64,000 nucleotides of DNA from Tetrapyrgos nigripes (taxonomy: Eukaryota; Basidiomycota; Agaricomycetes; Agaricales; Campanellaceae), in NCBI GenBank assembly GCA_013368315.1, contig JAACJM010000123.1:1-64000 (forward strand), in the 5' to 3' direction. Positions 19,447 to 60,539 of this stretch are shown here, piece after piece; position 1 is the stretch's first letter; each line of letters starts with the position of its first letter. The position numbers and the translations under genes were made by a program. Below the pieces are notes generated by a model. It saw only the letters and a list, made by a program, of their open reading frames with translations, had not been told where the DNA came from and did not search any database.

Positions 19447-19651
19447 GATGGGATAGAGTGTATGGTATGAAGAGGTAGATGTTGTGAAGTGGTGGTAGGA
19501 ATGGACGAGATGGTTGTAGTAAGAAAGTTTGATAGATTATGTATTTACAGTTTTGGCTTCGCAATCATTGTGACGTCGTGTTAATGTTGGCACTGCATGT
19601 TTTGGTTTGATTGAGGTACAATTCTGACATGGTTACAGTAATAAAGTTTAT

Positions 19652-22627: not shown

Positions 22628-22754
22628 TTAGGTCAAGATCCCTTACTGCACCGGTGGCCTCCGTATAGGTTGCCCTTGCAGGGGACAATACGCCGCACCA
22701 TCCTCAGTCTCTGATTCATCTGTCTCTGCATCTCCCCCACCACCTCTGACGCCA

Positions 22755-35398: not shown

Positions 35399-35740
35399 TC
35401 ATTATTTTTTGATGCCAACCCACCCAAATTTTCGGACGTGGATCTCTGATCAGTAAGAATTAATTTCTAGAGTGAGCTGAAAAGTCAGGTGATTTATTGG
35501 CTTACAGTAACCGGTTGTGTATGCCCAAAAAGTCTGTAAGGGCAAGGATTGAACTCATGCAAGCAAGAAACAACTGACGCGGAGTTTGGAACAATGCAAA
35601 ACCATTGCACCACAGGGCCTTTATTAACTTTGGTACATAATATTATGTACCTAGCTGTACAATAAATATATATTCATGACCACATGCATTTGTTCAACAT
35701 TGTCAAGGATTATGGAGATGTGAGTTTATGGGGGAGGGGA
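35399..35740 (-). repeat. tRNA-derived SINE-like repeat, copy 1
   Basis: On the minus strand there is a pol III A box (TGGTGCAATGG, 35602-35612) and a B box (GAGTTCAATCC, near 35546-35556) at about tRNA spacing, inside a region that reappears at 56763-57105. The copies share the ends ATTATTTTTTGATG and GGATTATGGAGATG and differ at many sites. The A and B boxes with a longer non-tRNA body argue for a SINE rather than a tRNA gene. Confidence 0.6.
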
Positions 35741-40300: not shown

Positions 40301-40946
40301 CATAGAGCATTGGCTTACAGAGAATGAAAATAGTCTCTACTGCATAGAATAGGCTTGTGGCAAAAATATCCAGGCTGTTTTGTAGAGAAATACTTGAGTT
40401 AGCAATGAGACTCTACTGTGGATAGGAATAAGTGGCTGCGCTTATCCACGCACATTTGAGTTTCACTACACTTCGTTGAAGTCCATTTACAAGCTCTATG
40501 TATACTTTTACACCTCTCTACTATATTAGAAATGCCCATATGTATGTCATACATTGTTAAACTTGAATATTTACTGGTACCCGGGCCGTACCCGCAGGCC
40601 CGCAGGGGGTACCCGCAGATTTCCCTATACCGTAGCCAAAACACTACTAGGCATACGCCACACCACATCACACCAAAAGCACATCACAGGAGGCCTTTGT
40701 TTGATGGTGATGCTCAGGAAACGCAACTTTGCAATCATTCTTCCTTCTTTTTCCTACAAATCATCATGCTTCATCATGTAGTATACTTAGATTCAGAATG
40801 ACACTTCAGGACAATGCAACTACAACACTTAACAAGGACTAAGTACAGGAAGAAACTGGAACTTTGGGGAGATGCAAGTACATGTGTATAGATAAAAAGA
40901 ATATTAAAAAAGAAAACCTGGAGTATTCATGTCCATTATTAGTGGC
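37385..40946. other. Region without a confident gene; GAGGATGTAGTG minisatellite and GGGTAC arrays
   Basis: A 12-bp GAGGATGTAGTG-type repeat is at about 37886-37950. Frames at 37490-37981 (+) and 38755-38955 (+) are unassigned. Arrays of the 8-10-bp GCGGGTAC motif lie at 39264-39330, in inverse orientation at 39908-39980, and again near 40577-40618. Confidence 0.4.
39264..39980. repeat. Segment bounded by inverted GCGGGTAC arrays
   Basis: The left array (39264-39330) has about six GCGGGTAC units with 1-5-bp spacers. The right array (39908-39980) has several GTACCCGC units. The roughly 570 bp between them have no convincing gene. A third array in mixed orientation is at 40577-40618. The layout resembles an element with repeat-rich termini. 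Confidence 0.45.
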
Positions 40947-42318
40947 CTAGTCACTCATGACCTCAGTCTGTCTCTCAAGCTGGGTCTCTGATCGAGATGC
41001 TGCCGTCTGCACCGAGGCAAATCTGATGGACTGAGAAAGAGACATGTCGTTTCGAGACCTGATTTCCTCCCTAGACCTCTCCACAGCTACAATGAGAAGG
41101 ATGAGAATTGGATAAAGTGTCTTGAAATAGTTCAGTCAAGTATAGAGGCTCCAAGGAGTATGTAAATACACCTACGACTAAACCTGGCAGAGCAACAAAA
41201 ATGGTCTGAAATACTAAGGATGATCCCCCAATTGAAAAGCTAACAATGATGTATGTGATCTATAATATTGACGGTTAACATTCATTTTGGAATAAATGAA
41301 GCAGAGCTCTGGCTACTGACCCAAATTCCACAATAGATCATTCCAGATTCAACCAATAACATCAGAATCTTTTGAGCTCTGCAAACCTGATTGCTACAGT
41401 CCTTCAAAGTCTTTTTGATATCTCGACCATGAAGCCTTTAAATAATCATGAGGAAATAATCAGACCAAACTGTCAAATGCGCACCAAGCTTTATATCCAA
41501 TGAGGCCTGTGGCAGCCATATTTGTGACGAGGAGTGGGATAGTCATAATCAAGGCATCCTTTTTCTGTCCAATATAACTAACGCTACGAAGACTCCCAAC
41601 AGCAGATAATCCTCCATCTGCTAATGCACCACCTAATGCTCAGTAGATAAGAATGAAGCCTTTAATTATGTAGATTCATCTACTCACCTAATGATCCCAT
41701 AAAACAAATAACCAGAATACCCTTGACAACCAGATTTCGGTGAAACATAATCCATGCTCTCCAGACTACAATTCCATCACCAATAACATACTGTCACGAT
41801 ATGAGCAAGTATCAATGTTGGGTTAGATTAATCTCAAGGTAATGATTGATTACTTACATTCAATCTTTGTATCATGTTTCCAGCTATCTCTACGTTTGTT
41901 AGCTGTTGTATAACATTTGCAACATTGACAACATTGTAACCGTTTAGTGGAATCTGGACCAGGGCAGATAGCACATTCAGAGTAGCAAGTGTAGTTGTAA
42001 TAAGTAGCATGAAGACCACAAAGGCAAGAAGGACAAGCTGTGGTCCTGAGGGATATTTTTGCTGTGATCTGAGAGCAGAGAGCAGTGGATTCAAGTTGAT
42101 GTGTAATGTGTTACATAAATATATCCATGGGGTCAGACTCAGAGATAAAACAACATGAAAAGTCAGGCTTACAGAATAGCACAAAATATTGTGAGGGCAA
42201 GTGTTACATTGACACCATGAAGCAGCCACCCAAAAGCCATTTCAAATATCCAGTCTTTGAGGAAAGCAAGATCAGAGTTGGAGAGAGGCAAGGAAGGTGG
42301 TTGTTGTGCCTGAAGCAT
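40947..42318 (-). CDS. Multi-pass (seven-TM-type) fungal membrane protein, 328 residues
   Basis: Seven exons: 42318-42173, 42068-41858, 41790-41688, 41638-41485, 41435-41321, 41259-41176 and 41120-40947. All join in phase with GT..AG introns of 49-104 nt. The protein starts MLQAQQPPSLPL. It has hydrophobic segments at WLLHGVNVTLALTIF, LVLLAFVVFMLLITTTL, GILVICFMGSL, LIMTIPLLVTNMAATGLIG, ILMLLVESGMIYCGIW, ITYIIVSFSIGGSSLVFQ and LYPILILLIVAV. The motif GIVVWRAWIMFHRNL in the middle and IGYKAWLHGRDIKK are typical of a large basidiomycete-specific family of about 330-residue seven-helix proteins of unknown function. The cytosolic tail is polar and ends TEVMSD. No stop or frameshift is seen. It is a surviving host gene amid TEs. 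Confidence 0.8.
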
Positions 42319-42724
42319 TTCGGAGACTTGAAGTGAGAGGGCACTGATTCAAGCACTTATATTGTCCCCAGTGTGCTCACTTTGTATCCATCTTCTGTGG
42401 CGATCAGATAGTGATAGCACTGATTTCTCAGCTTTAAATAGTTATCCTAACTGGCCTCAGTTCATCAGTCAACCCGAGGCTTTACCCAAATAACCCTTTA
42501 TTGAATCTACAGCAGACACTTTTGATGGTAATTATGTGGAAGAACACCAGGACCACAGACGCCCAAACTCTGACATGATACATCAATGGTCACAATGTGT
42601 GCCCTCACAGTTCCGAAAGTTAAGACATATCAAACCTTCACTGCATAAGATCAAACACGCAACTTAAAAATTCTTGTTCCATCTTTAACTGGGGAAAAGT
42701 GCCACTGCTTCGCATGACAAGCAA

Positions 42725-43445
42725 GTAACGAGGCCCTTGGAACGTATGATATATGATATACAGAATAACCACTAGCTCAACGGCTCTCAGCCTCACATTT
42801 TATCATTGCAAAGCAACTCTTGTGGTCTATAATGCGTGCCAAATATTAAATCTATGCATACGTACACGAGAAGGGACAAGATATGATAGAAGAGAAGTCA
42901 AAGATACACATGGACCATGGACACATGTAACACGATGGAAAGGAAATGATACTACCATGAAGTGACATGAGCGACAGCGAGATGAGCAGTTCTTGATGAC
43001 GTTTGACGTGTGGCGGCAGCAGGCAGCATCCTTGAAGGTATTGCGAGCGAAAAGGTTGACACATCACACACAGAAATGGCTCAAGACTCGACAAAGATAC
43101 GCACCTGTTGTGCAGCCAAAGCATTCTAATGTCCCCACAGTGCTCTATCCACGCTTTTAAAATGGCCTTGGAAGGTTTAGAGGTCACAACAGTGATGTGC
43201 AGAGAGCGCCTCTCAATGACTTTTGACAGCTGCTGAGGGAAGGTAACGCGTCTGAAGTTCGTCTTGCTGGTTGGTGGGGCCTCTGTCATGATGAAGGTCG
43301 ACAGGGATGACGCGATGGCATGTCAGTTGAAATGCCAATCATTTCGGAGTGCTGAGGTGGCGTGTGAGACTTAGAACCTGTGGAAAAGTTTGCTACTCAA
43401 TTGCGAGGTCGACATAGGTTAACTCGGCCTAAAAGGACCTCGTAA
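42725..43445. mobile_element. TTACGAGGCC-family TIR element, 721 bp
   Basis: The left end GTAACGAGGCCC and the inverted right end (AACTCGGCCTAAAAGGACCT, then CGTAA) match the element at 16123-16427 and the one at 58286-59708. The motif GCCACTGCTTCGCATG precedes the left end. Inside is a minus-strand frame (42852-43289) that starts MTEAPPTSKTNFRR and is not recognised; it could be captured sequence. Confidence 0.5.
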
Positions 43446-43841
43446 CTGCTCACCTCAAAGCAGATCCTAGGTCAGAGAGCCTGGTTATCATTTTAGATCC
43501 CTCTGAAATTTTCAAAATAAGTAATACAGCCCCCGCCCAACGGTGTGCAGCAGTGAATTGCTTTCCATCACCTGCACACTCGTTCAGATGTTCTTGAATA
43601 AGACCTTGGAAGAACACATCGTAAATCAGAATCATGATTTTGGTCCTTGGACCACAATTGAGCTGTTATCTGCGAGGGGTTCCGATTACTATTTATAGTA
43701 ATCGGTTTTCTTTGCGACAGAATCTCTCATTTCATGAAGGTAATGCGCATGCTTGATCCGTGGGAATATATAACTTTATATGGGTCAAAATACATGTGAC
43801 AAATTTTCTCTAGATCACACCCAGACAGGATTGAACTTGTG

Positions 43842-45081
43842 ACTGGGGAAAGGTGCCACTGCTTCGCATGGCAAGGTACGAGGCCCTCCTCAACAAGATC
43901 ATACCAAAATTTCACTCTTGTATTGACTACATAGCAGTTACTGACAAAGTAGTATGAGCGAAATAAGCTTAAGTATGTATGTGCTAAGGAGGAAAAAATC
44001 GAAACTGACATCCAAAGATCATCAACGCGCTGCCAGACACCCAACGCAACGGCTAAATCCAACTCAACTCTAGCTTCATGTCGACACAACAATTACGCAG
44101 TGAAGAGCGCAAAGCCCAATCTAACCACCAAGTCACCCATCACATAAAGGCATGAGAAATCAATGTCAACACCAACGGCAACGCCTGACTTGGGTGAAGA
44201 CCAGAACGCGTTGGGGCGAGTGAGCCGTCTTGAACAAAGACACTTTGGAGACCGAGAGGAGCAATGAGAGTGGGAGAGGGGTACCAGATGCCTAGTAGAG
44301 AGGGAACGGGTGTTGGTGGGGTCGAGCATGCGTGCAACGATGCGCAGGCAGCGGAGGGTTGCAAGGTTGCCATGATGAGTCGAGAAGGTACCGTCGGAAC
44401 TATGGGCGTAGTCGAATGCACCTGTGAAGATAGGTGAGTCAGCAGTGTTCTCCCTAAGGGCTTAAAATGAAAAATAATTAAGGCTTTACTGAGGAGCAGG
44501 AGGAATCTAAGCCTTAATTAAGCCTTAATATACATATGTTGCTACATAGCCACATAACTTTTTGTGAAGCCTGAAGTACAGTACTCCTCAGCAATACACT
44601 CTATTTCTCTCAAGCCACAGCTTGTGACAAGGGACCACTCTGGAAGTTCATCTAAGAAGGAGAAAAGTCAAACAAGTCTGACTCAAGGGCTCACTGTCTC
44701 AGGTGCATCAAGTATGATATGAGGTACTAGATGACGGAGTGTTAGAGAGTTCTGGGGATGAATATAAAGAGTAGACTTGTAGTAAAAAAAATCATTTGCC
44801 CTTAAATAAGCCTTACATAAGCTCTAGTTAATAACCATTATTAAATATTTAAGGCGTAAGTCCTGGGATCGCCCTTAAATAAGGCCTTAAGGAGAGCACT
44901 GTGAGTCAGTATACTTATATAGGCGCAATGTAGACATACATAGAAAAAGGTTTCAGTTTCTCTCTGGCCTTTCCTTCTAAGTATCTCTTCAAAAGCGACA
45001 GTTCCCAGCGGTTGAGGTCCTTGTTGACCAATATATATACTTTCCCCATTGGATCTGGTTTGCTTTTAGAGGGATTTGTGG
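43842..45081. repeat. Left arm of a large inverted duplication (TTACGAGGCC-family block)
   Basis: This block is the inverse of about 58507-59743 with few changes. It starts with the ACTGGGGAAAGGTGCCACTG motif, then GTACGAGGCC at 43876, contains the hAT-type insert 44443-44901, and stops abruptly at the KDZ TIR at 45082. The 93-codon frame 44140-44421 (-) has a near-identical partner at 59166-59447 (+). No protein family is recognised. Confidence 0.75.
44443..44901. mobile_element. hAT-type MITE, left copy
   Basis: The ends CAGTGTTCTCCCTAAGG and inverted CCTTAAGGAGAGCACTG are flanked by perfect 8-bp repeats TGAGTCAG (44435-44442 and 44902-44909). The interior is rich in AAGGCTTA-type motifs. 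The element is 459 bp with no coding capacity. The same insertion, with the same 8-bp duplication, is in the right arm. Confidence 0.8.
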
Positions 45082-45811
45082 CACCTGTGAAGCCCACCTA
45101 AGCGACCAAATATGATAGGACCAGGGATCATATGGTCCTATCAGATTTGATAGCTTAGACCCCTCCCCTCCATAGCGCGTTATTTATCCGTTAATTATGG
45201 AGGGACTTTGTAATTTCAGAGGGCTCTGGCAGCTGGGACGATGGGAGGCGTCGTGGGAGGGATCGCCATGATGTCATCGTCGGGTTTGAGTGGCACCTCC
45301 CCGTCGGATTAGTTGCCGTCGTTGGCTCCGCTCGTTGTCCCGCCCTCCCGACAACAGCGAGCATGCATGTACATCAAATAAAATCGTAAAAATTCGCAAA
45401 AAAATTATACTTCCCCGTCGGATCAGTCGCCATCGTTTTCTCCACTCATTGTCCCGCCCTCCCGACAACAGCGAGCACATACATCGAATAAAATGGTAAA
45501 AAATTCGCCAACAAATTTAGTCCAGGTGGCGCTTCCCCCTCGGATCAGTCACTGTAATTGACCCTGTACTCAATATAAAATAAAATATATTACATCTGTC
45601 GCAGGTGGCGCTTGTGGGTTTGGGTGGCACTTCCCCGTCGGATTAGTTGCTGTCGTTGGCTCCGCTCGTTGTCCCGCCCTCCCGACAGCAGCGAGCACGT
45701 ATGTACATCGAATAAAATCGTAAAAATTCGCAAAAAAATTTATAGTAGTCTACGACATAAAATAAATTACATTTAAAGGTACAAGCAAAAAGCCCCTTAA
45801 GCAGTATCATG
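45082..45811. repeat. Left TIR of the KDZ transposon
   Basis: This is a near-identical inverse of 56030-56759. It contains three to four subterminal units of about 115 bp, each with CCCCGTCGGATYAGT, CCGCCCTCCCGACA and a TAAAATCGTAAAAATTCGC-like end. Such clustered repeats are candidate transposase-binding sites. The last codons of the transposase gene reach into its inner edge. Confidence 0.85.
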
Positions 45812-48800
45812 AGGGATTACTCATGATACTTACAGCCTCACTTAACCCTTCCTCTTCGTCTCCACTGTCGTTACTGTCGTCACTGACTGTCCCGTCGTCA
45901 TTGCCAGTGGACTCTACAACTTCCCTGGCTAAACTATGTCCTCCACATCGTGAAAGCTCTCCAACTCCTCGCTGCAAAATCCCACTGAAACCTGGCAGCA
46001 ATGAAATCCTATGAAGAGTCTTCCAATGACCTTCCCAAAAGCGACCACGGCGGTTATGGTAGAGGCGAATCTGGTGAGCCAGGGAGGGATTGACAGGGAG
46101 GAGCTCCTCTACCTTGCTGAGGAGGAAGTCATCTTCATCATGCAGGTATGTAGCCAAGCGCCTAATCTCTAGGTTGAGGCGCTCAATTTCTTCTCCAGCA
46201 CGTAAGTACTTGAAGTACTTATCCATGGCAACACGCACAGCAGGCTCTGACCAGCGTTTCTGCCTGATGTCTTGCCTCGTATCTCGAAGGATGTCAAAGT
46301 CTGAGAGGAAGCAGCACTCCACAACAGTTTCCCAGTCAAGTTTGGGACCCGGGGGCTTCAAGGCAGCAGCAGCCCTGTTGTAGTTGTCCAGGGCAGTGTG
46401 GATAGCCTGTGAACGGGTCTTGAGGGCATAGGCGATGTGTTTTCGTAGTTTGTAACCTATAGATGGATGTCAAGAGTATACAAATGAAAGGGTATCTGAG
46501 CTACTCACCAGTCTGAGACATGTTCATCCTCGTTAGTTCAAAGAGCCTCGCAACTACCAACCCCTCCAGCTTATCCACACACTTCTGGTACTGTGCCTTC
46601 TCTGTTAACAACTTCACACTCTCCCACTCCATGCTCCCTGGCTTCCAACGCTCTGAGATACCCAACTTCTGCTCCAGCACATGACAGTGTATTTTCATAT
46701 CATCCCGAATTTCTGCAGCCTGTCAACGTTTCGTTTCAAGTTTGCGAGTAGTGCTAGTTGTAACCTCATAGGAGCGACCAATCATGTCGTTGTTGTTAGT
46801 TGTTAACCATGCGCTGTTGGTGGTCTTCAATGTTTCCCTGGAAAGGAAAGAAACTACCATCAGTTAGAGAACCCAAAATGAGGTACGTCTCACTCACTCT
46901 GCTTCCTGCAAACTGACTAGCCTTTGGAAATACTCCATCTGCAATGTCTCCTCCTCAGGTACTGCCGCCTTCTTCAAATCCCGCAGATAGTCCCGCTCTT
47001 CAACCAACCACTCATGAAACCTGTCCACTGAGTCAATACCCAAGTCCTGCATTGACCGAGCCAATGCCGAGAATCCTTGGTGTATTTCAAGGGCTTGCTT
47101 GTAATTCTGAAGCAGGAAGTTGGGAAGGTTGGCGTAGGTTTCAAAGTCGTCATTGTGTTCAGCATAGTTTGCAATAGCTTGGCGGCGATGGAAGACACTG
47201 GCGTATCTAACAGAGGAGGCAAGGGCATTCGATTTAGAAAAGAAGCGCTCGCATCCCTCTGAGTCTTCTAGCCCATTGCCCTCCACATAGGTACCAAAGT
47301 GTTCGGTCTGGCAAAGACGGCAGTGTGCATGTCCGTGGAAGGTGCCGACTAGAGACTTGAATCGCTTTTCGCTTGCTTTTGGGCCCAGGGTGCTCTTGGC
47401 AATAGTGGTCTTGAATCCACACACAATGTCGTAACTGATTGCAAGGTCTTCCCCTAGAACTTCAATGAGCCTGTCTATCATAGCAAGGCCATATTTAGCT
47501 CTGAAAAATGTCAGTGTTTCATTCATACATAATCAGAAAGATAACTTACTGCTCTCCACTTCTAACCATGTCCTCTATCAGGAGGACGAAACCGTGTCTG
47601 CAAAGACACAGAAAGATCCCTGTCTCTTCGAATACCCCCCACATTGACGCCGTCAACTTCTCACTCAAGTTCTTCCACCTTGGTGTGCAAGGTGAGTCCT
47701 CAACCCCTAGTTCCTCCAGGATTTCGTTGGCCATCCCGTTCGCCCACCGGTCTACCTCCTCTCTACTCAGATAGTAGTCTCCACCTCCTGTTCGTGTATC
47801 CAGTCGTTCCCTCGATGGACCTGCCCCTGGGATTAAATTCCCTTCTTGATCATACCAAGGTGCACGTCTGGCCACTCGCTTCAAGGAATCCCTGCCATCC
47901 ATGCAGCCCATCATGCTGAACTTCAACTTCACCTCTGCATCCAGCTTGTAGAGGCAGGATGGACAGGCATGGGCAAGTCTCCAGTTGGGGTCAGCACAAC
48001 CCAGAGCCTGGCGAACTTGGGATTTGACACGGTCACGCAAGTCGAGGTGTAGGTCATGGCAAATGGAAAATTGTTCGCGTAGGTATGGCCGGTATGCTAC
48101 ACCATGTAGATCACAGAGCGTCTTGACAAACGGTTGGATGTTTAGGCGTGGGCAGCGCAGATTTACAATGCGATAGTGCTCAAGAGTGCATGTGGTGATG
48201 ACGACGGTCGGTCTGCTGGGAGCACAAGGGATCAGTCCTTGAGAGATGAGCAAGGCTAGTGTATTGTTGAGGGATATATGTACATCTCTTCGGCTACTAC
48301 CTGTAAACTGGTTAGAAGAAGCAAATGAATATAAAAATTGAGAGCACGCACCAAACAAGTCTACTACCTGCAGACTAACTGTCGTCCAGTCCTCAGGAGC
48401 CTCTAGTAAGACTGAATCTCTACCCACGTCACCATCTACCCGAAGACTCCAATCCATAAAGGCATCGGTCATAGAATCCATATAGAGGGAAAAGGCAAGG
48501 GTGCATTGCTCTACACGATCTATTCGGGTGCGGTAATCTGTGCGTCCCCTAGTACAACTTGTATAAGTAAGTAAATATTATAAAGGAACACATAACATAC
48601 CTTTTACCTCGGCCAGACAATGATTCGAACAACTCGTATGTCTCTCCACCTTCATGGCTGATGTTAATCTCCTTTTCTCCCATCAAAATATCGTTTACTG
48701 CAGCCCGACCCTCCATGAAGTCCGTCATATCTCCATCGTCGTCCCAAGACCCATCCTGATCCATAGTGTCCACAGTAGGAGGTTGCCGAGTCAGTTCTTC

Positions 48801-49106
48801 AGCTGCAGCTTGAGCCTTCGCGGAACGAATAGCAGTTGGGGTGTAGGTACGAGGTTTTGGATATGGGTCATACCTATCGCCTGAAGGTATTGAAGCCCGT
48901 TGGTGACGCAAGGCAGCTTTGAGCTTGAAAGGCTTCATTGCGTTGTTGACCAAGTCTTGCAGACGTGACCAAAACGCGTCTGTCTTTCGCGTGACTTTCT
49001 GACTTGTGTTGACTAACTTGTGACTTGTTCTCGATCGCGACTTGCAACTCAGTGCGTTTTGCCTCCACTTGTAAGTACATTTTCTTCTCTTCTCTAGCCA
49101 ACTCAA
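45807..49106 (-). pseudogene. KDZ transposase (one in-frame stop)
   Basis: Exons: 49106-48601, 48548-48352, 48300-47550, 47500-46898, 46837-46509 and 46456-45807. They join in phase to 1012 codons with introns of 49-60 nt. Family features are MDGRDSLKR (first catalytic Asp, near 47890), YDIVCGFK (second), the Cys/His-rich FHGHAHCRLCQ, and LEDSEGCERFFSKSNALA (the Glu), then LEGLVVARLFELTRMNMSQTGYKLRKH. A TGA at 46725-46723 interrupts LETKR.QAAEIRDD; CGA to TGA is the likely change. Everything else is open, so this is a very recent loss, or a readthrough or sequencing question. The 5' end is uncertain: no ATG heads the first exon, and an upstream exon may exist. It is divergent from the TET/JBP gene. 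Confidence 0.8.
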
Positions 49107-49276
49107 GTTACCACTGGGCCTACTCGGTGGTTCTGAATGGTCTAAATTATAGGCCTAGGGAACTGCTGAGTAAGCCCAGAGGTTACTTGGATGGACTAGC
49201 CAAGAGAGACATGTACACTATGCCTTTTTCTTGGTCAATCCTTGGCTAACGCTTTTTCTTTAAAGGGTCCTATGAA
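49107..49276. promoter_or_regulatory. Shared divergent promoter region, transposase and TET/JBP genes
   Basis: About 170 bp separate the two divergent coding starts. No clear TATA box is visible. The exact extent depends on the uncertain 5' end of the transposase. Confidence 0.35.
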
Positions 49277-50737
49277 ATGAAACCTCGAGAAGTGAGTTCC
49301 TCTTGATCTTATAACTATAACATGGCTAATATCCCTTCCACATAGCTTCGCAATGGCAAGGTCTATGCAGAGCTCCAAGTGTTTCGCCCTTCCCACCAGG
49401 TCGACGTTGGCTGCCTCATTGACCGAGCCTTTCATCCCAATGCCCACGCCGACGAGTCTGACGATGAAGAAAACACCCCTCCTCCACTAGTTTCCCCAGT
49501 CAGCCTATCTTCCAACGGCAGCATCCACCCTTACGAGTATGCCTCTCCTTTATCGAGCCCTTCTTCCAACATTCCTGTTCCCAATCCTAACAAACGACCG
49601 GCACCTTCGGAAAGCCAACCCAGCTATCGAAGTCACAAACGCGCACGGCAGCGAGAGCGCCAGTATGAAGAAAAAGGTCACCTCACTGCCTACAATATGT
49701 CTATTGCAGCAACGACGTCCCAGCCCTTCCTCAGCTCCCTCAAATCAGATACATTGCCTATTGCACATGGTGGATATGTCGCAGTTGAGCAGGATATGAA
49801 GGGAAGAACAATTGACCACCCGCTGGAGTGGTTTCTAGACAATGGGTTTGAATTGGTGAAAAATGATGGCAAGTGCGTGTCCCTGTTTTCTTTCTTTCTT
49901 TCTTCACAATTACTCAACGATAGTAGCCAATCCATTCCTCTTGTCACAGCTGAGGACAGAGTCATCGGCGCTATTGCTAAGAAACCCGCCACCCTTCAGT
50001 ACGAGCAAGCCGTGGACACCGCAGCGCAGCTGATCGCTGAGACTGGTAGCGCCGCTGACTTCACCGCTGGCGAGAAAGCATCAAAACACGGTCGAGGCTT
50101 CGGCTCTGCAGCATACGGTCATTCTTTTGGGAAGGGACAGCCCCAACCTATGTGTCTTGTGAAACGCCGTGAGATGATGAAGGGCCTGCTCTCTGACCCT
50201 TGCTTTACTATTATTGCCCATGCTCAAAGCTGTGAGTGCCCATCTTCTGTTTTATTTCCTTTACTCATACACCTACATACAGCTGCCTATGCTGTGTTTT
50301 CACCCAGAAACTACATCTATTACTTTCAAGGCATGAAGCTCTTTCGCCGAGTCATGAAAGCTCTTGGCGCTCCATCCGAGGACTTCAAGCCCAACTTCAA
50401 GAAAAGTGTTTTTTCATGCATTACCGTCAACTTTGGTCCTCATACTTGGACCTTCGTTCATACCGATGCAAAGAATACAGCTCACGGAATGTGCGCCATC
50501 ACCGCCCTTGGTAATTTTGATTACAAGCGCGGTGGACACTTGGTCCTCTGGGATCTCAAACTCGTCATCGAGTTTCCTCCTGGCTGCACTATCCTCATTC
50601 CTTCAGCCCTACTCCTTCATTCCAACATTGGGGTTCTGCAAGGTGAAACTCGGTACAGCATCACGCAGTATACAGCAGGTGGGATATGGCGGTGGTTAGA
50701 TGATGGCGGTCGAACTGTAGTTGTACAATCATCTTGA
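49277..50737 (+). CDS. TET/JBP-type 2-oxoglutarate/Fe(II)-dependent dioxygenase (KDZ cargo)
   Basis: Exons 49277-49291, 49346-49876, 49955-50231 and 50283-50737 give 425 residues (start MKPRE, then LRNGKVYAEL). Introns 2 and 3 are 78 and 51 nt without stops, so the genomic frame looks continuous. The N-terminal third is polar with an NLS-like KRARQRERQ. The C-terminal half is the double-stranded beta-helix: FGPHTWTFVHTDAKN with iron ligands H334 and D336, then GGHLVLWDLKLVIEFPPG, H387 in LLLHSNIG, and R398 in GETRYS for 2-oxoglutarate. TET/JBP enzymes oxidise 5-methylcytosine or thymine in DNA. Mushroom members occur in many copies linked to KDZ transposons. No stop or frameshift is seen. The substrate is inferred from the family. 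Confidence 0.82.
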
Positions 50738-51629
50738 AATCGAAAAGTTTTATGCCGTCCATGCATGTATGAGCGAGGCGAGATAGTGTAATGAATTGGG
50801 AGCCAGCTCCGGACCGTACATCCGGAATAGCTTCTCAATGTCGAGAACGACGATGACAAGGTGTCCAGGCCAACGTCCAGCTCAAATATCATCTGAACAG
50901 ACTTAGGAATACTGTAACTTGCTTCTAGTAAAATTTTGGGGAAAACTATCAAGTCTATCGAATGTAGTGCACTAAATGCTTCAAGGGCGATTCAGAATCC
51001 TATCAGATACTTGGAACGAAGTATCAAAAAAGTAAAAGGTGCTCCGTTAAACTTCTATTTGACATATGCTGGAACTACATACAAGCAAGTCTTGAATCCA
51101 AAAAATCAGCTCAGAATACTAAGATATACTTCCATAATTGCGCGTTCAACTCGAAATTTTAGGTTCACTTTTCAGTCTGTATCATTGCTTCAGTAAATAC
51201 TGAGGGCAGAAGGATTATTTTACGAGTTCAGGTAGTAATTTGGAGTAATAATTGATACAGCAGCAGGCCATAACACATGCAGATAGCCCCCAACCTTTTT
51301 ATCTGGAAAAGTATCGGAAATGTTGAGTGCAGAAGGCATTTCAAGGCCTTTTTTTCACTAAAAAAATGTTAAAAATGCCTGTAAGTACTAGAATCTTGGA
51401 TACCTAATTATTACAGCAGGAAGTAAGAATCAGAGCTTCAAATCAGGAAACTTGACAATTGTGGCGGTCAGATGAGGAGGAGTGCATACTAAATTTGGAA
51501 GTTGACATAGCCACAGCCTTCAAAAACTTGCAACTTGTGTCGATTATGTAGCTTGTTGTCTATTGAAATTCCCCAAGTCTTTCAGACTGTCAAAAAATTC
51601 GTACAAGTGGAAGGAGGTGCATTTCAGTC

Positions 51630-51857
51630 GTAGTTTCTTAAGTACACAAAAAACTACATAAAAAGGGAGTAATAACAAAGGCTCTGACTCAAGCTTCGGA
51701 TTTCGCCCGTAGTATCTTAAGTACACAAAAATTTACATAAGAACTTAGTTCAAGGGAGTAATAACAAAGGCTGGCTCAGCCCGTAGTATCTTAAGTACAC
51801 AAAAATTTATATAAGAACTTAGTTCAAGGGAGTAATAACAAAGGCTGGCTCAAGCTT
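51630..51857. repeat. Three tandem copies of a 73-78-bp unit at the 3' end of a cargo gene
   Basis: The units start at 51630, 51709 and 51783, each with GTAGTATCTTAAGTACACAA near the start and GGGAGTAATAACAAAGGCT near the end. The third copy holds the stop codon and the last codons of the RNase-H1-N gene; the other two lie downstream. Confidence 0.75.
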
Positions 51858-52900
51858 CAGAACACGTTCAGCCATATACTCTGCAACAAAAAATGCGTTG
51901 GCATCTTTGGCGTTATTATGTGGATACACAGCCCCTCTACCATAATACAACCCATCCCTGATCACTTCATGTCTGAAGAATGCGTTGAGTGAAAGAAAAA
52001 AAAAAAGAAGTCAAAGAATACATACCTTGTCTTGTAAACTCCAGGGTGTATGCCCTGGGTAACAACCCAGTGAGGCTCACCAGTTTGCGGCTGGAAGCTG
52101 ATAGCATTCAGGACACCAGAAGTGGAGGCAAGTTGATAAGATTGCTTGGCAAGGGATAAAGATTGGAATCCCTTAATGACCGAGTTTTCGTCGCCTTTGA
52201 TGATTGCTTCCACTTGCCTCCTACAAAAAAAAATTAGATACACCTCCAGTCCATACCAAGGAACTTACCAGCTGCCAAAGGCTCCAACGCTCCAACCATG
52301 GTAAACAACATATGCTTCCCATTGCTTTCGATGACCACCTCTGGGAGTGTGTGTAACTGCCTGGCGCTGAGGGGTTACGGTCGGTTGAGGCTGGTGATTT
52401 GGAGGATGACGCTGGGGGGTCGAGGGAGAACGACGCTGGGTCACTTGAGGTAGGCCTGATGCGTAGGATGGCGGAGGGGTGCTGACTCGCTGTGGAGGAA
52501 CAACTTGGGGGACTGGTCCAGATTCCGGCTCACTGTCTGTCTCATAGAGATCGGAATTGTATGCTTCTTCACCTCCTGAATTGGTATCTTTGTCATCCCC
52601 GGATTGCTCTAACATGAAAAGCGTGGGTTTAAAACTTAAAACGGTGAGGCATTCTACTCACCTGCGAGGAGACATTCTATTTGCTTCCTTAATGCAGCTG
52701 GTACATCGACGAACAATCAGCAAAGACACCTCAGGTACAAGGGATAACTCACCCATCCCCTGCTCCCTAGCATTGTTGAGTTTCTCGTGCTCTGAACATA
52801 CCGTGCTTATTGTTTGATACATTCAAAGAATATAGAATAAGTACTCGCCTTCCAAAAGAGCAGCTACAGCATCCCGGTTTGTCCGTTGTGTTCATGTCCA
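51819..52900 (-). CDS. RNase H1 N-terminal / viroplasmin-like domain protein (KDZ cargo)
   Basis: Clear exons are 52791-52753, 52697-52662, 52608-52269, 52220-52026 and 51972-51819. They join in phase to 254 codons with introns of 44-55 nt. The protein has a short coiled-coil-like start (EEHEKLNNAREQGMAALRKQ) and an acidic, Pro-rich linker. Then comes AYVVYHGWSVGAFGSW-RQVEAIIKG..VIKGFQSLSLAKQSY, which fits the small domain that opens eukaryotic RNase H1 and binds RNA/DNA hybrids. A C-terminal part ends RVLKLEPAFVITPLN. The 5' exon (about 52849-52900) is uncertain: a GC-AG intron would be needed, and the frame has a TGA just upstream. There is no RNase H catalytic domain. Confidence 0.65.
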
Positions 52901-53119
52901 GTCTGTTGAAAAACTCTGGGTCAGCGTACAAAGATTTCTGGTTAATGATTATACGGGATTCACTTGTTGCGGCTTTACCTTTACCTTTTTTCAATCGAGT
53001 ATCTTTGACTGCGTAAAAGAGTTCAGTGGATGAGCATCATTTTGTAGAACAAGATTTTCTTACCCATTGATGACACTCTGACTGTGGATTCCAACAGTAG
53101 GGAAAAGTGGAGGTTGGAA

Positions 53120-53155
53120 ATGGTGGTGGTGGTGGTGGTGGTGGTGGGGGTGGGG
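53120..53155. repeat. GGT/GTG microsatellite
   Basis: About nine GGT units followed by a G-rich stretch, between the divergent cargo genes. Confidence 0.85.
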
Positions 53156-53602
53156 ATTCAGAAACAAGAAATTGAACCATGTCCATGCATATCCATGCAT
53201 GCTCGCTGCTCGCTAATACACGCCACTGACTAATTCTCAGAGTAGCTGTCAGTGAGAGCCACAGTTAGGCTGACGTTCATCTTGCTTGCAGGTGAGCCTT
53301 TGGACATCTGTTGACCCTCTTCTCACTACGCACCAGATTTTGAATTAAATGTTAGTCACGGGATCAGCTTAACTGAGTTTGATTTTGATTTGACCCTCCG
53401 ACCTCCGAGTACCAGCTCCTATCCACTTGCTAGTGTGGAGGGTGGCGGAGGGTGGCGGGTGCATTATCACAGAGACGCGACGTTGTTGATGTGTTTTGTT
53501 GAAATTCTTTTGCCAGAATACTGGGGTCCCTGACCAGTGAGCAGTAACGCTGTGTACCACCTCTGGCCATCCGCTACCTCTACGACTTTCATTTGCCCTC
53601 AG

Positions 53603-55672
53603 ATGCCACCTCTCAATTCTCTTCTCAATCCTGTTGACTCCACCATTGATCATGCTTGGTATTATAACCATACTGGAAAAGCTGAAGATACTGGGAACAG
53701 CCCTTCTTCGATTTTTTCCAGTTCCACTGGTCAGCATTTTCCATTCACCTTCACGCCAGAGTCTGTGCCACCGTCGAATAACAACCCTAAATCCCTGCTT
53801 GCTGAGCTTCTCGAGGATGATATTGATGTTGACGGGCTCCAACCATTTGGGTTTGACTATTCCCTAGTCACTGCCGCTATGGAGAATACCCCCTTCCCTA
53901 ATACTAAAAATAATGCCATAGGTTCATCCTCTAGCCTGTGGCAACTTGATTTCTCCTCAGATGCTCCTGTGGCTCCTGGCCCCATGCCAGCTCCTGTCAG
54001 TGTTCGGCATGCACCACCAGCAGAGCATAGTGATACAGAAATCACTCCCATAGACACCACAAACCACAAGCACACTTCCACCATGTCTGAAGTATCAAAA
54101 ACTCGACAGTCTTTGTCTTCAACATCTACTCGCCCTGGGGGTACAGCCACTGATCTACACACCTCTGCCTCCTCCTGTCACTATCCCTCAGCTCTGACTC
54201 ATTTAGAGCTGAACGGTCATCTTCCTTTGCAGTACCCTCACTCCCGAAGGGGCCCTAAACTTTCAGACACGCAAAAACAGGCAATTTCAGCTTCTGCTGC
54301 CCTCGCCAAAGCCAAACGTGTGAAGTTGATGGACCGACTCATCGAAGCTGGGAAGGCTCACCAGGAAGCTTTAAAGGCTATCGCAGAGGAGGAAGGAGTC
54401 AGATTTGAGGCAGTTGAAAAGCTCCTCTCCACTTCTTCCCACTTCCGATCCCACCAAAATGAGGTGTCAACTAGGAATGCTCTAATGCACTATGTGAAGG
54501 TCCAGGGCCTGAACAACAGTAAGTCATATGAACTCTATAGACCTTTCCTGATGGCTTATGCATGTCTATAGATAATCTGCGTGCGGGTGAATTGCATCGT
54601 TTCATCGACAATGACCCTGAACTTCAAAAAATTGCAAAGGATAAGGAGGCCATTTCCAAACTGAAGCAAGACGTACTGGATTACAGGGAGGCGAAAGCAA
54701 TGGGTGCTCGCATTTCTTCTCTGTCAGCTGCCCAGGATATCCAGGCTTTTACAGACAAGATGGGTGTCGAGGTATGATTTCAGTTTCCCTGATGATCACC
54801 TTTTAGCTCAAGCTTTAATCTAGTTGAACAACCTCTATTCACGCACCGGGGCTCTTGGATTTTTAATGGTTACTCCCGGTAGTCATGACGACAAGGGCCG
54901 TCCTGGGTTTGCTATTGGTGGGCTAGACACCATGGCTTTCTTTCGAAGGAATTTACGGCTTGAGCCTTGGGACATTCTCGCTGATTTTCAAATGTATGGA
55001 GCGAAAGGTGACGGTAGTAAGTTGGTCTATCTCCCTCAAAATTGTAAATGCTAATATTGTGGTATCCAGGGCGAAGGGGTATTGACTCTGGAGCTGAGCT
55101 CCGGGCTCAATGCACCAGTATGATATCGAGCAGCCTATGTATGTTAACATTTGTTATTTTTTTTTTGATACTATACTGACTACTTTTGTACCGACTACTT
55201 TATAGGTTTCGCAGTCCGAGAGCGTGTCCAAATGAACTACGACAGTTATGACACGGCAATTGTTCAAAGACTCAAGGTCAAGCTGGTTTGGCCCAAGGAT
55301 ATCAATAACGGTGCCATTATCAACCCAACCAAACTTTCTATGGATGATGTCCGCAAGCTACACCATGCACTCGAGATCGGGACCTGTAAATGGGTGGAGT
55401 TAACAACGCAGGAGAGAGCAAGGCATCAGGAGGAGCATGAGAAGGCCATGGGATCAGGCAAACGAACTCGAAAGGAACGGTCTGACAAAGGAGTTGCGCG
55501 TGGCCCAAACAAACGCGCTCGGCACGCCAAACCCAACGAAAACGCAGCTCCCCAGAAACAAGCGCCAAAAAAGCAGAATCAGAAGGGAAGGGCTAGCTCT
55601 AGGAAGACGGTGGAGGCCTTTAAGAGTGCTGAGTTTGTTGAGGATCATGAGGACGAGGCTTTGGATGGGTAG
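53603..55672 (+). CDS. Large basic protein of a KDZ-linked mushroom family, function unknown
   Basis: Exons 53603-54518, 54572-54771, 54824-55016, 55070-55117 and 55206-55672 give 607 residues, all in phase and without stops. The first 200 residues are Ser/Pro/Thr-rich. Next come a helical segment (LAKAKRVKLMDRLIEAGKAHQEALKAIAEEEGV) and a block reading NALMHYVKVQGLNN. Then RAGELHRFIDNDPELQ..LKQDVLDYREAKAMGARIS, LYSRTGALGFLMVTPGSHDD and FFRRNLRLEPWDILADFQ follow. The C-terminus is strongly basic with several NLS-like runs (GKRTRKERSDKG, GPNKRARHAKP, APKKQNQKG). I recall this architecture as a repeated family in Agaricomycete genomes but know no function. A DNA or chromatin role is inferred from the basic tail and its place inside the transposon. 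Confidence 0.75.
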
Positions 55673-55799
55673 AGAAGCTGTGGTGGTAACTAGCTATGTC
55701 TCTTTGTCTCATTCAGTACCCATCGGACTCACATAAAATTTTACACTATGTATTTATTGAAAAACAAGAGATTTGAGGTCTTGGACCATTAATAACCAT

Positions 55800-56759
55800 A
55801 TATTTGACTTTGCTGTTGTCGGGAGAGCGGGACAACAAGCGGAGCCAATATCCGACGGGGAAGTGCCACCCAAATCCACGAGCGCGCCTGCGACAGATGT
55901 ATATATTTCATATTGAGTACAGTTTCAATTACAGTGACTGAACCGAGGGGGAAGCGCCACCTGGACCCGACAGATGTAATCTATGTACTATACATATTTT
56001 TGCGAATTTTTACCATTTGATTCGATGTACATGATACTGCCTAAGGGGCTTTTTGTTTGTACCTTTAAATGTAATTTATTTTATGTCGTAGACTACTATA
56101 AATTTTTTTGCGAATTTTTACGATTTTATTCGATGTACATACGTGCTCGCTGCTGTCGGGAGGGCGGGACAACGAGCGGAGCCAACGACAGCAACTAATC
56201 CGACGGGGAAGTGCCACCCAAACCCACAAGCGCCACCTGCGACAGATGTAATATATTTTATTTTATATTGAGTACAGGGTCAATTACAGTGACTGATCCG
56301 AGGGGGAAGCGCCACCTGGACTAAATTTGTTGGCGAATTTTTTACCATTTTATTCGATGTATGTGCTCGCTGTTGTCGGGAGGGCGGGAAAATGAGTGGA
56401 GAAAACGATGGCGACTGATCCGACGGGGAAGTATAATTTTTTTGCGAATTCTTACGATTTTATTTGATGTACATGCATGCTCGCTGTTGTCGGGAGGGCG
56501 GGACAACGAGCGGAGCCAACGACGGCAACTAATCCGACGGGGAGGTGCCACTCAAACCCGACGATGACATCATGGCGATCCCTCCCACGATGCCTCCCAT
56601 CGTCCCAGCTGCCAGAGCCCTCTGAAATTACAAAGTCCCTCCATAATTAACGGATAAATAACGCGCTATGGAGGGGAGGGGTCTAAGCTATCAAATCTGA
56701 TAGGACCATATGATCCCTGGTCCTATCATATTTGGTCGCTTAGGTGGGCTTCACAGGTG
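55800..56759. repeat. Right TIR of the KDZ transposon plus extra subterminal units
   Basis: 56030-56759 is the inverse of the left TIR. Further subterminal units (CGGGAGAGCGGGACAA, ATCCGACGGGGAAGTGCCAC) extend inward to about 55815, so the right end has more repeat units than the left. Confidence 0.8.
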
Positions 56760-56762
56760 TTA

Positions 56763-57105
56763 TCGTTATTTTTTGATGTCCACCCACCCAAATTTTTGCG
56801 CATTCAAACGCGGATCTGTGATCCATGGGAACTTATCACTATATTGAGCTGAAAAATTCATGTAATCTATTTGCTTACAGTAAGTGATTGTGTATCCCTA
56901 AAAAGGGTGCCAGTGTGAGGATTGAACTCGCGCAAGCCAAACATAATCAACGCGGACTTTGGCACAGCGCAAAACCATTACACCACAGGACAACCGTTAA
57001 ACTGCATACATAAAGGTCCATATCTAGTTGTACAATCAATATATGTTCATTACCATTTGTTCAACATCATCAAGGATTATGGAGATGTGGGTTTGGTTTA
57101 TGGGG
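56763..57105 (-). repeat. tRNA-derived SINE-like repeat, copy 2
   Basis: On the minus strand there is an A box TGGTGTAATGG (56975-56985) and a B box GAGTTCAATCC (near 56919-56929). It matches 35399-35740 along about 340 bp. It starts three bases outside the KDZ right end. Confidence 0.6.
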
Positions 57106-57196
57106 GGTAAGATATGTAAGTGCAGAGAAGTTTATTATGAATTCATTTTAAGGGGCTATTTTGGATGGGAAATAAAATTTTGCAGGGGTGAGGGGA

Positions 57197-57950
57197 AGTT
57201 TACCATTGATACATTTTTGGTCTGAGCCAATTATGGCTTTCTTTAATTCCAGATTGAGAAGGAAAGAAAGCCCACAATAATAGGTAGGGTAGTTTACCAT
57301 CAATATATGTTTGGTCTGGGCCAATTCTTACCTCATTTCACTCCAGAAAAATAGGGAAACAACCCCCATACTGAGAGGTACTCTGGATCTATGGATATGA
57401 GTTGTGGGTGGGTGAGGGGGAGGATATGTGAGAGCAGGGAAGTTTACCATTCATATATTTTGTTCTGGGGAAATTCTGGCCTCATTTAACCTCAGAATAA
57501 GGGGGAAAGAAACCCTAGAGTTATAGGTGCTCTGGATGTGGAGATATGAGTTTTTGGGTGGGTGAGGGGAAGGTATGTGAGAGTGAAGGAGTTTACCATC
57601 AATATATTTTTGTTCAGGGGCAATTCTGGCCTCATTTAACCTCAGAATAAGAGGGAAAGAAAACATAGAGTCATAGGCTCTCTGGATGTGGAGATATGAG
57701 TTTTTGGGTGGGTGAGGGGAGGGCACGTGAGTGCTGGGAAGTTTACCATCAATATATTTTTTATCTGGGGCATTTCTGGCCTCATTAAACTCCAGAAAAA
57801 CAGGGAAAGAAACCCCATACTGAGAGGTTCTCTGGATCTACAGATATGAGTTTTGGGTGGGTGAGGGGAAGGTACATGAGAGCAGGGGAGTTTACCTTCA
57901 ATATATCCTTATTATGGGCCAATTCTTGTCTCATTTAACTTTGGAACAAG
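57197..57950. repeat. Minisatellite with a 150-bp unit, about five copies
   Basis: Unit starts marked by AGTTTACCATCAATATAT-like sequence are spaced about 150 bp apart at roughly 57290, 57440, 57590, 57740 and 57888, with a diverged copy at 57197. Each unit contains GGGTGGGTGAGGGGA and a CTCTGGAT block. Confidence 0.8.
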
Positions 57951-58285
57951 ATATACTTCACCTGTGTCTTTGCCGCTCACCTGTCTTTGTTGTTGTCAAC
58001 CATCACTATGTATGATTTTGGGGAGCTGTGTGTTCCTTTTGGCTGCCTGTTGTCATTGTACTCATTGCATCTAGGTCCCCTGAATTGGTGGATTGGGTAC
58101 TTTCCCATCTTTCTATGGATGAGTTGATGCCCTTCTCCATCTCTTATTTCAATTTCTGAAGCTGTACACTCCAACAAGGCCCAACTTCACTCTCTGAAAC
58201 ATTTACAGTGCCACACTCAGTTTATTATTTCTGGTTCAGTTGTCCATTTACTGGGTTAACAAGAACCATTTTGTGGTGCATGTAG
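57951..58285. other. Non-coding spacer
   Basis: Sequence between the minisatellite and the TTACGAGGCC-family block. No gene or repeat is recognised. Confidence 0.4.
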
Positions 58286-59708
58286 TTACGAGGCCTTTAG
58301 GCTGAGTTAACTTAGGTCGACCTCGAAAATGTTCCCAGGGGTTCAGTCTCCCACCCCTTTTCATCCGGTCTCTACCTTCCCGACAACCGAAATGTGTCTA
58401 GACTCGGTCTGGACCGGGTCCAATGACCGCTGGTGACGTCGACAACCCATGCTAGCGTGTCGAGCGTGTCAACTCATCTTGCTCGCAGCTCATCATGTTT
58501 CCCCCCACCACAAATCCCTCTAAAAGCAAACCAGATCCAATGGGGAAAGTATATATATTGGTCAACAAGGACCTCAACCGCTGGGAACTGTCGCTTTTGA
58601 AGAGATACTTAGAAGGAAAGGCCAGAGAGAAACTGAAACCTTTTTCTATGTATGTCTACATTGCGCCTATATAAGTATACTGACTCACAGTGCTCTCCTT
58701 AAGGCCTTATTTAAGGGCGATCCCAGGACTTACGCCTTAAATATTTAATAATGGTTATTAACTAGAGCTTATTTAAGGCTTATTTAAGGGCAAATGATTT
58801 TTTTTACTACAAGTCTACTCTTTATATTCATCCCCAGAACTCTCTAACACTCCGTCATCTAGTACCTCATATCATACTTGATGCACCTGAGACAGTGAGC
58901 CCTTGAGTCAGACTTGTTTCTTTTCTCCTTCTTAGATGAACTTCCAGAGTGGTCCCTTGTCACAAGCTGTGGCTTGAGAGAAATAGAGTGTATTGCTGAG
59001 GAGTACTGTACTTCAGGCTTCACAAAAAGTTATGTGGCTATGTAGCAACATATGTATATTAAGGCTTAATTAAGGCTTAGATTCCTCCTGCTCCTCAGTA
59101 AAGCCTTAATTATTTTTCATTTTAAGCCCTTAGGGAGAACACTGCTGACTCACCTATCTTCACAGGTGCATTCGACTACGCCCATAGTTCCGACAGTACC
59201 TTCTCGACTCACCATGGCAACCTTGCAACCCTCCGCTGCCTGCGCATCGTTGCACACATGCTCGACCCCACCAACACCCGTTCCCTCTCTACTAGGCATC
59301 TGGTACTCCTCTCCCACTCTCATTGCTCCTCTCGGTCTCCAAAGTATCTTTGTTCAAGACGGCTCACTCGCCCCAACGCGTTCTGGTCTTCACCTAAGTC
59401 AGGCGTTGCCGTTGGTGTTGACATTGATTTCTCATGCCTTTATGTGATGGGTGACTTGGTGGTTAGATTGGGCTTTGCGCTCTTCACTGCGTAATTGTTG
59501 TGTCGACATGAAGCTAGAGTTGAGTTGGATTTAGCCGTTGCGTTGGGTGTCTGGCAGCGCGTTGATGATCTTTGGATGTCAGTTTCGATTTTTTCCTCCT
59601 TAGCACATACATACTTAAGCTTATTTCGCTTATACTACTTTGTAAGTAACTGCTATGTAGTCAATACAAGAGTGAAATTTTGGTATGATCTTGTTGAGGG
59701 CCTCGTAC
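58286..59708. mobile_element. TTACGAGGCC-family block; right arm of the inverted duplication
   Basis: The left end TTACGAGGCC (58286-58295) and the inverted right end GGGCCTCGTAC (to 59708) bound 1.42 kb. From about 58507 on it is the inverse of 43842-45081. Near the left end it shares GACTCGGTCTGGACC-type sequence with the small element at 16123-16427. The frames inside (59166-59447, 59258-59494) encode no recognised protein. Confidence 0.65.
58688..59144. mobile_element. hAT-type MITE, right copy
   Basis: It has the same ends as 44443-44901 and is flanked by CTGACTCA on both sides (58680-58687 and 59145-59152), the inverse of the duplication in the left arm. The insertion therefore predates the duplication of the arms. 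Confidence 0.8.
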
Positions 59709-60539
59709 CTTGCCATGCGAAGCAGTGGCACCTTTCCCCAGTGAGAAAAGATGGCACAGTTTGGCTCAATGATGGCATGGTGCATGGAAACACTTCATGA
59801 CCTGAAGGAGGATATAACACCACAATGCTACTTATAATGATGATCCTGCATGTTCCTATATATATGCCCTGATGTAATATAGTAATCGTCTTGCCAGCAA
59901 CAGCTTGGCCTCTACCCCCCAGTTCCTTAGTAACACTAACTGTGAGTCCGCAGGTTGGGATTCCCCATTCAAGATCAAACACAAAATAACAATCAAATCA
60001 CAATGATATTCTCTGTTTCCACCTGAAGATGAGATTCTCTAGTGTCAAACAGGGATGGTTGGTTTCTGTGTTGTACATATCTACAGGTGAGTACTTTATA
60101 TACATGGCTAATAAATTAATCTAAAACCTGAATACATAGCTGTGGGCACAGAATGGTAGTTCATTGTCTCTAAGGTAACTGCCAACATTCCAATGTGTTG
60201 AATGACTCAAATGAATCTTGAATTCTTGTGTTCTAATTTGGTAAGTGTGGCCTCCACCTCGGAGCTGCAGGCACATCAATTTCTATTCTTCTCTTCTCAC
60301 TTTTCTCTTTGTTGAGCTTCCCTGACTCATTTCTTATTCTTTAATGCTACCACTGCTCGTATTTCTTGGTTACAAGTCTCCTGGCATGGATATCAAGGTG
60401 TGTTGCTTTGCCATTCACTCGTGATTGAGTATTTACTAGTATGGGGCCACAGCTCCTTTCTTTTACTAGTACTGATCGGGGAGTCTTGCACGGATAGACT
60501 CCATCAAACCAGGTTCAAGTAAGTGAATATGTTTTATTA
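59709..60539. other. Non-coding region without a recognised gene
   Basis: The first 35 bp carry the CCATGCGAAGCAGTGGCACC motif also seen next to other TTACGAGGCC copies. The rest shows no gene. Confidence 0.4.

Follow-up and report, generated by a model that had tools for sequence, protein, structure and literature searches.

A Tetrapyrgos nigripes KDZ transposon family with a TET/JBP-fold dioxygenase and two further genes inherited as one set

Introduction

KDZ transposons that carry a TET gene are known from Agaricomycetes (Kojima 2025, PMC12730594, citing Iyer et al. 2014; papers given by PMC number are cited here for the passages that bear on these elements and enzymes). Insertions of a similar element, KDZ1 of Cryptococcus neoformans, have been observed in the laboratory (PMC12810828). 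The purpose of the transposon TETs has not been tested by experiment, as PMC12730594 itself states. Here, we analyzed a 64,000-nucleotide stretch of DNA (contig JAACJM010000123.1, positions 1 to 64,000; hereafter the window) from Tetrapyrgos nigripes, an Agaricales mushroom of the Campanellaceae. Its genome comprises 98.5 Mb in 587 contigs and holds at least 173 KDZ-domain matches. Positions 45082-56759 of the window are occupied by a KDZ transposon with long terminal inverted repeats (TIRs), a TET/JBP-fold dioxygenase and two further genes. We consider it rather probable that this is an autonomous transposon equipped with its own anti-silencing kit.

Results

The transposon begins and finishes with the letters CACCTG..CAGGTG. 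Its left TIR (45082..45811, starting CACCTGTGAAGCCCACC) and right TIR (56030..56759, finishing ..GGTGGGCTTCACAGGTG) are each 730 bp long and identical at 725 of 730 bases (99%, E=0), with CpG observed/expected ratios of 1.15 and 1.13. The first-pass annotation had described 730-bp TIRs bounding four genes in two divergent pairs, and this arrangement was borne out by the two arms and by four open gene models. Two sister copies, on contigs C19 (724088-735683) and C124 (137640-150019; C-numbers denote contigs of the T. nigripes genome), share CACCTGTGAAGCCCACC.. with the window copy at both termini and sit within perfect 8-bp target-site duplications (TSDs; TCTCAAAA and GAGTTACA, respectively). 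Positions 45082 and 56759 are therefore the true element ends. Perfect 8-bp TSDs also flank the copies on C121 (GATGTATG), C21 (GGTCAGAC) and C30 (GGCAGGTA), and the C34 copy has one with a single mismatch (GCCTTAGG/GCCCTAGG). Thus six of the seven full-length elements have the 8-bp TSDs expected of TIR-type KDZ transposons, five of them perfect and one with a single mismatch. No TSD borders the window copy; its flanks read ATTTGTGG on the left and TTATCGTT on the right.

We observed all four genes in one order in every full-length element read (7/7); within the set examined, they thus co-occur between matching TIRs. Tblastn with the window exons found the transposase, the TET gene and gene 4 in 6/6 other full-length elements, and gene 3 was recovered from the same six with a profile. 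In the distant copies on C121, C21 and C30, gene 3 (E of 3e-16, 3e-16 and 5e-15) was flanked by TET and gene 4 and had the expected orientation. Over the seven elements, the pairwise identities of one transposase exon tracked those of gene 4 (r 0.97-0.98) and TET (r 0.80), and those of another transposase exon tracked gene 4 (r 0.80-0.85). Matches on C49 and C342 (TIR, KDZ and gene 4) and the TIR places on C159, C269, C153, C95 and C239 lie outside the set of elements read. The set extends to other mushrooms in part. TET, gene 3 and gene 4 are consecutive in Stygiomarasmius scandens (VKT23_018417, 018418 and 018419; each on a contig of 277,347 bases), and TET and gene 4 are apparently on one contig of 655,008 bases in Dendrothele bispora, contigs being matched by length; the searches in these two species covered genes 2-4. 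In T. nigripes, these data show a KDZ transposon family of 11-12 kb with TIRs, 8-bp TSDs and one inherited four-gene set.

Genes 2-4 might instead be passive, hitch-hiking cargo that serves itself or the host rather than the transposon. Consistent with this, 61 of 85 TET loci (one row per locus from 113 rows) had no KDZ match within 8 kb among the matches listed, although 3 of the 61 (C124, C34 and C21) sit in elements for which a separate search recovered the transposase. For KDZ neighbors we used the matches from the 150 candidates scored out of 345, omitting two second pieces, and the neighbor counts are accordingly lower bounds. The first-pass annotation had also raised the case of cargo lying mostly outside KDZ TIRs. 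We found the opposite. At 15/17 gene-4 loci, at least one of KDZ, TET and gene 3 was within 14 kb in the module layout, transposase(-) TET(+) gene3(-) gene4(+) or its mirror; the exceptions were C239, with a TIR match 1.1 kb off, and C6, without any. Gene 3 was in a module setting at 9/10 loci, C151 being a lone gene 3 (one or two rows per locus, from 56 gene-4 rows and 25 gene-3 rows). The layout was also constant across elements with gene-4 pieces only 40-55% identical, and genes 2-4 are neighbors in S. scandens too. We therefore regard passive cargo as quite improbable. Other arrangements of TET and KDZ occur in the same genome. Among the matches listed, 24 TET loci have KDZ within 8 kb: the pair is tandem at 13 of them, convergent at 5 and divergent at 6. 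The tandem and convergent layouts differ from that of the four-gene set.

The four gene models of the window copy lack internal stops and encode 940, 408, 309 and 614 amino acids (aa); they were placed by hand so as to be open. Their introns are 45-99 bp long and of GT-AG type, apart from one GC-AG. Gene 1 (45807..48938, minus strand, 940 aa) has seven exons (48601-48938, 48352-48548, 47550-48300, 46898-47500, 46765-46837, 46509-46719 and 45807-46456), and its stop codon falls just within the left TIR. It matched the KDZ family PF18758 over the whole profile (1-217) above cut-off (6e-73, 245.6 bits). Candidate D, D and E residues, the putative catalytic acidic triad, were picked by eye.

A 43-bp subterminal motif is repeated near both ends. 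Its first copy lies at 45321..45363 (plus strand) and left copies 2 and 3 start at 45435 and 45655; the right-side copies, on the other strand, start at 55807, 56144, 56364 and 56478. Left and right counts were 3+4 in the window copy, 3+4 in C19, 4+3 in C124 and 1+3 in C34. There were 0 copies in the 47,000 bp of the window that we scanned outside the transposon. The motif was not detected in C121, C21 and C30 at the threshold used; stretches of 67-78 bp around it align in these three at 78-89%.

Gene 2 (49277..50737, plus strand, 408 aa) has four exons (49277-49291, 49346-49868, 49950-50231 and 50331-50737). It had been called a TET/JBP oxygenase, and the call held at the level of fold: structure searches with the S. 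scandens relative gave TET/JBP as the closest fold among the 2-oxoglutarate (2OG) oxygenases. The active-site pattern is H317-x-D319-xx-N322 .. C328 .. H370 .. R381. The iron triad and the 2OG arginine are in place, with H317, D319 and R381 in at least 90% of aligned sequences and H370 in 26/26. The gene 2 protein scored below the cut-off of Pfam Tet_JBP PF12851 (15.3 bits versus 34.9, E 0.011), and 16/58 of its relatives matched this family at E 0.01 or better (309 proteins were found in the homologue search, 120 of them listed). The TET alignment used as a sequence profile against PDB gave no TET and chance-level matches only, the single gene 2 sequence gave no PDB match, and NCBIfam returned nothing for the S. 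scandens TET. A six-frame search of the genome gave a single match above the Pfam Tet_JBP cut-off, at C284:50588-51019, perhaps a copy resembling CcTet, the TET of Coprinopsis cinerea.

Asn322 and Cys328 were matched to CcTet positions 331 and 337 by ungapped register from H-x-D, with CcTet numbering from PMC11040006. Asn322 was invariant in both TET alignments, and Cys occupied the CcTet Asp337 place in 58/58 proteins of one and 26/26 of the other. By the hallmarks given in the text of Kojima 2025, AG-type TETs carry Gly or Ser at CcTet position 331 and Asp at position 337, where this group has Asn and Cys; PE-type TETs have HxE for HxD, where the window protein reads HTD. On these residues, the gene 2 group appears to be a further TET active-site type (HxDxxN..C) that fits neither the AG nor the PE hallmark.

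These residues also raise the question of substrate. A TET-fold enzyme acting on something other than 5-methylcytosine (5mC), such as N6-methyladenine (6mA), RNA or thymine, would fit the cysteine at the Asp337 place and the sub-threshold PF12851 score, and CcTet itself acts on 6mA (PMC11040006). Against this, the invariant Asn322 occupies the place of human TET2 Asn1387, which holds 5mC and clashes with 6mA (PMC11040006), and the CpG scars in the element copies (below) point to 5mC. We judge a different substrate unlikely.

Gene 3 (51819..53067, minus strand, seven exons, 309 aa) had been called an RNase-H1-N-type protein, and Pfam agreed: residues 179-220 matched PF01693 at 28.4 bits (1.9e-6) against a cut-off of 21. 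A second stretch that resembles a hybrid-binding domain by eye (HWVVTQGIHPGVYKTR..) is kept in S. scandens. Pfam gave gene 3 no catalytic RNase H family, with matches considered up to E of 1, and the NCBIfam match of the S. scandens gene 3 was far below cut-off. The N-terminal exons are uncertain, and the public model begins elsewhere; T. nigripes D9758_016467 is 98% identical to gene 3 across 84% of the model. A six-frame genome search with PF01693 gave only two adjacent pieces on C15 and carries little information, since an intron interrupts the domain in the gene 3 of the window and the search missed it. Gene 4 (53603..55672, plus strand, 614 aa; exons 53603-54518, 54572-54771, 54824-55016, 55070-55138 and 55206-55672) encodes an orphan protein with a conserved middle and a basic C-terminus rich in R, K, G and P. 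It matched no Pfam family above cut-off, and NCBIfam gave nothing for the S. scandens gene 4. Homologue searches returned 3 proteins for gene 4 (7994 candidates sharing most words were scored) and 4 for gene 3.

We assessed selection by dN/dS. Between the window copy and C34 (76% identical), values were 0.15 for the transposase, 0.19 for TET, 0.26 for gene 3 and 0.24 for gene 4; against C19 and C124 they were 0.31-0.57, so that all lie well below 1. Judged by the hand-made models, internal stops in transposase, TET, gene 3 and gene 4 numbered 3, 4, 3 and 3 in C34; 4, 3, 0 and 1 in C124; and 0, 0, 0 and 1 in C19.

A three-copy comparison revealed a strong CpG-deamination scar. C-to-T changes at CpG made up 63/92 of the private changes in C19 and 97/126 in C124, with rates of 0.071 and 0.109 at CpG versus 0.0020 and 0.0016 at other C/G. 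This scar implies that methylation reaches the elements. In 6/7 elements, the CpG observed/expected ratio was high across the outer 730 bp (0.79-1.22) and low in the interior (0.49-0.62); C34 was the exception, with ends of 0.30 and 0.83 versus an interior of 0.28. In C124, the CpGs of the TIRs were spared (1/195 versus 96/696, p 4e-10).

CpG-rich ends, in which the repeated motif holds CpGs, would also suit a TET product that serves as a mark. On this alternative, 5-hydroxymethylcytosine (5hmC) or 5-formylcytosine (5fC) at the TIRs would be read by the transposase or the gene 4 protein and would label element ends or target sites; it would not be a step of demethylation for expression. That genes 2-4 stay together fits this idea, as does the enrichment of oxidized cytosines at TIR elements of Laccaria bicolor together with low expression (PMC8889193). 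However, a Pfam search of genes 1, 3 and 4 up to E of 1 turned up no family that reads modified cytosine. We consider a mark of this kind possible, though on balance doubtful.

We also read seven short elements with the same TIRs. Three (C148, C375 and C272; 2.0-2.1 kb) retain part of the last TET exon and part of the transposase end; the other four (C138, C5, C43 and C108), 2.4 kb long and 99% alike, match none of the window genes and contain no frame longer than 122 aa. Matching TIRs that enclose unrelated genes would have spoken against a four-gene unit; all seven short pairs were either deletion derivatives or had no window-gene match. Duplications of 8 bp flanked 5/7 (C375 had none, and the right end of C272 was not placed). 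The near-identical short copies at different sites suggest recent movement.

At the window copy, an outer inverted repeat (43842-45081 / 58508-59742, 99%) meets the left TIR without a gap. It belongs to repeat A, which is dispersed, measures at least 1457 bp and has two inverted copies around the transposon and many partial copies genome-wide. The left copy (43842..45081, plus strand) is truncated at the transposon's left end and the right copy (58286..59742, minus strand) is 1457 bp long; both are outside the transposon. Copies of repeat A elsewhere do not border the transposon, and the repeat is separate from it. Repeat A is broken at the element's left end, and 9 of the 10 other copies shown continue past that point; the tenth, on C216, likewise runs into the element. 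The rest of repeat A is not found to the right of the window element, and a pattern search allowing up to 1 mismatch gave 0 matches for the expected right junction, that is, the element end joined to the remaining repeat A. Hence the right junction has either undergone rearrangement since the insertion or is an assembly error that links two separate places. One nested palindrome, in which a 1.75-kb insert would split a single TIR of 1.97 kb, was considered and rejected, because the outer 1240 bp are a dispersed repeat that occurs without the element and because the sister elements terminate precisely at CACCTG.

Other features surround the element. The right flank (56760..58285), outside the transposon, begins with a resemblance to window 35398-35727 (74%), followed by a 150-bp tandem array of 4.4 copies (57286-57939). 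C216:128082-135165 holds near-identical copies of window 39000-41000 and 42342-46087, the two parts compared (41001-42341 was left out), and the contig stops inside the element; this duplicate is a haplotig or an assembly duplication. Two long open reading frames (ORFs) at 18478-20683 (minus strand) resemble, on inspection by eye, a tyrosine recombinase and a reverse transcriptase/RNase H, and may belong to a DIRS-like element. By the same kind of inspection, ORFs at 22632-26109 (plus strand) resemble the gag and reverse transcriptase genes of Ty3/gypsy-like elements. Scans of the window for tRNA and Rfam families gave no matches.

Discussion

Anti-silencing is the likeliest mechanism for this gene set, and we infer for it 5mC oxidation by TET, hybrid binding by gene 3 and DNA binding by gene 4. 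The transposase would bind the array of 43-bp motifs near both ends and would cut and paste the element. The host would methylate CpG in the element, as the CpG-to-TpG scars suggest. TET would then oxidize 5mC, chiefly at the CpG-rich ends and at the promoters between the divergent genes, and this oxidation would make transcription or transposase binding possible. The gene 3 product is most likely a binder of RNA-DNA hybrids or double-stranded RNA, which may act on the RNA side of silencing or bring TET to transcribed copies. For the gene 4 product, with its basic tail, the most likely role is that of a DNA-binding partner. A bolder version is that a TET of a further type, with a TET2-like Asn and with Cys for the CcTet Asp, is steered by the hybrid-binding gene 3 and the DNA-binding gene 4 to transcribed copies and CpG-rich ends. 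Demethylation would then be guided by the transposon's own transcripts, and the set would be a co-inherited self-defense device of an undescribed kind; we hold this version to be a long shot.

Several observations weigh against an anti-silencing kit. The CpG scar shows that TET did not keep the copies unmethylated, and in Laccaria high 5hmC/5fC accompanies silencing, not expression (PMC8889193). The sparing of TIR CpGs in C124 was absent from C19 (14/195 versus 49/696, p=1) and from two short-element families (2/264 versus 5/480, p=1; 16/336 versus 14/174, p=0.16), and on the window copy's long branch the TIR difference was not significant (10/195 versus 62/696, p=0.10). Measured against the hand-made models, C34, C19 and C124 show stops or indels whose lengths are not multiples of three, some of these indels being perhaps alignment error. 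The second transposase exon co-varies weakly with TET (r=0.49). The cysteine at the CcTet Asp337 place would leave the substrate unfixed, and the putative roles of genes 3 and 4 were assigned from nothing but their domain type and composition; the structure model of gene 4 was unusable (pLDDT, the predicted local confidence, 38). TIR sparing was thus seen in 1 of 2 cleanly testable copies. C124 had suggested a general rule of TIR protection, but neither C19 nor the window copy nor the short elements bore it out, and protection of the element ends is at most copy-specific. The first-pass annotation had suggested that the TET perhaps helps the element to escape silencing or to mark target DNA. 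By the CpG scar, methylation does reach the copies; TIR sparing differs between copies, and escape itself stays a conditional reading.

The family makes the question of whether transposon TETs defend the transposon directly testable. TET is kept with the same two partner genes in 7/7 full-length copies, which names the partners to test. The natural short copies share the TIRs and lack intact genes, and the CpG scars record methylation. In addition, this TET group differs at two active-site places from the sole fungal TET of known structure.

We did not find the four-gene family described in the literature searched, as far as titles, abstracts and passages show; Iyer et al. 2014 and the supplements of Kojima 2025 were outside this scope, so an earlier description is possible. 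The term 'RNase H' has 0 occurrences in the main text of Kojima 2025 (PMC12730594).

Among known systems, CcTet (PDB 8jkk, 7w5p and 7vpn) shows 12-16% identity in the structure searches, has Gly331/Asp337 where the gene 2 group has Asn/Cys, and was not reached in PDB by the TET sequence profile. KDZ1 of C. neoformans resembles the element in size (~11 kb), long TIRs (241 bp) and 8-bp TSDs; unlike it, KDZ1 has a transposase with a CxC1 domain, and the passages of PMC12810828 name no TET or cargo set. TET-bearing IS3EU with an alpha-kinase and TET-bearing PHISTA with a third protein also combine TET with further genes, but they belong to other transposase superfamilies and carry other cargo (PMC12730594). 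Zisupton, judged by its description and not by a labeled transposase tree, shares 8-bp TSDs, TIRs and a KDZ transposase with the T. nigripes family, and some Zisupton families carry TET; the passages of PMC12730594 mention no comparable third and fourth gene. TET-bearing Kyakuja is similar in its KDZ transposase, TET/JBP dioxygenase, CA..TG ends and mushroom hosts (PMC12730594). The two Laccaria Kyakuja families, however, have 7-bp TSDs and no TIRs, whereas the T. nigripes family has 8-bp TSDs and 730-bp TIRs and so departs from Kyakuja as described from Laccaria. Its TET has a changed pair of active-site residues relative to AG-type TETs, and the element holds two more conserved genes. Compared with the known TET-bearing KDZ transposons, what is new is a family that joins TIRs and 8-bp TSDs to a TET with an HxDxxN..C active site and to two genes beyond transposase and TET.

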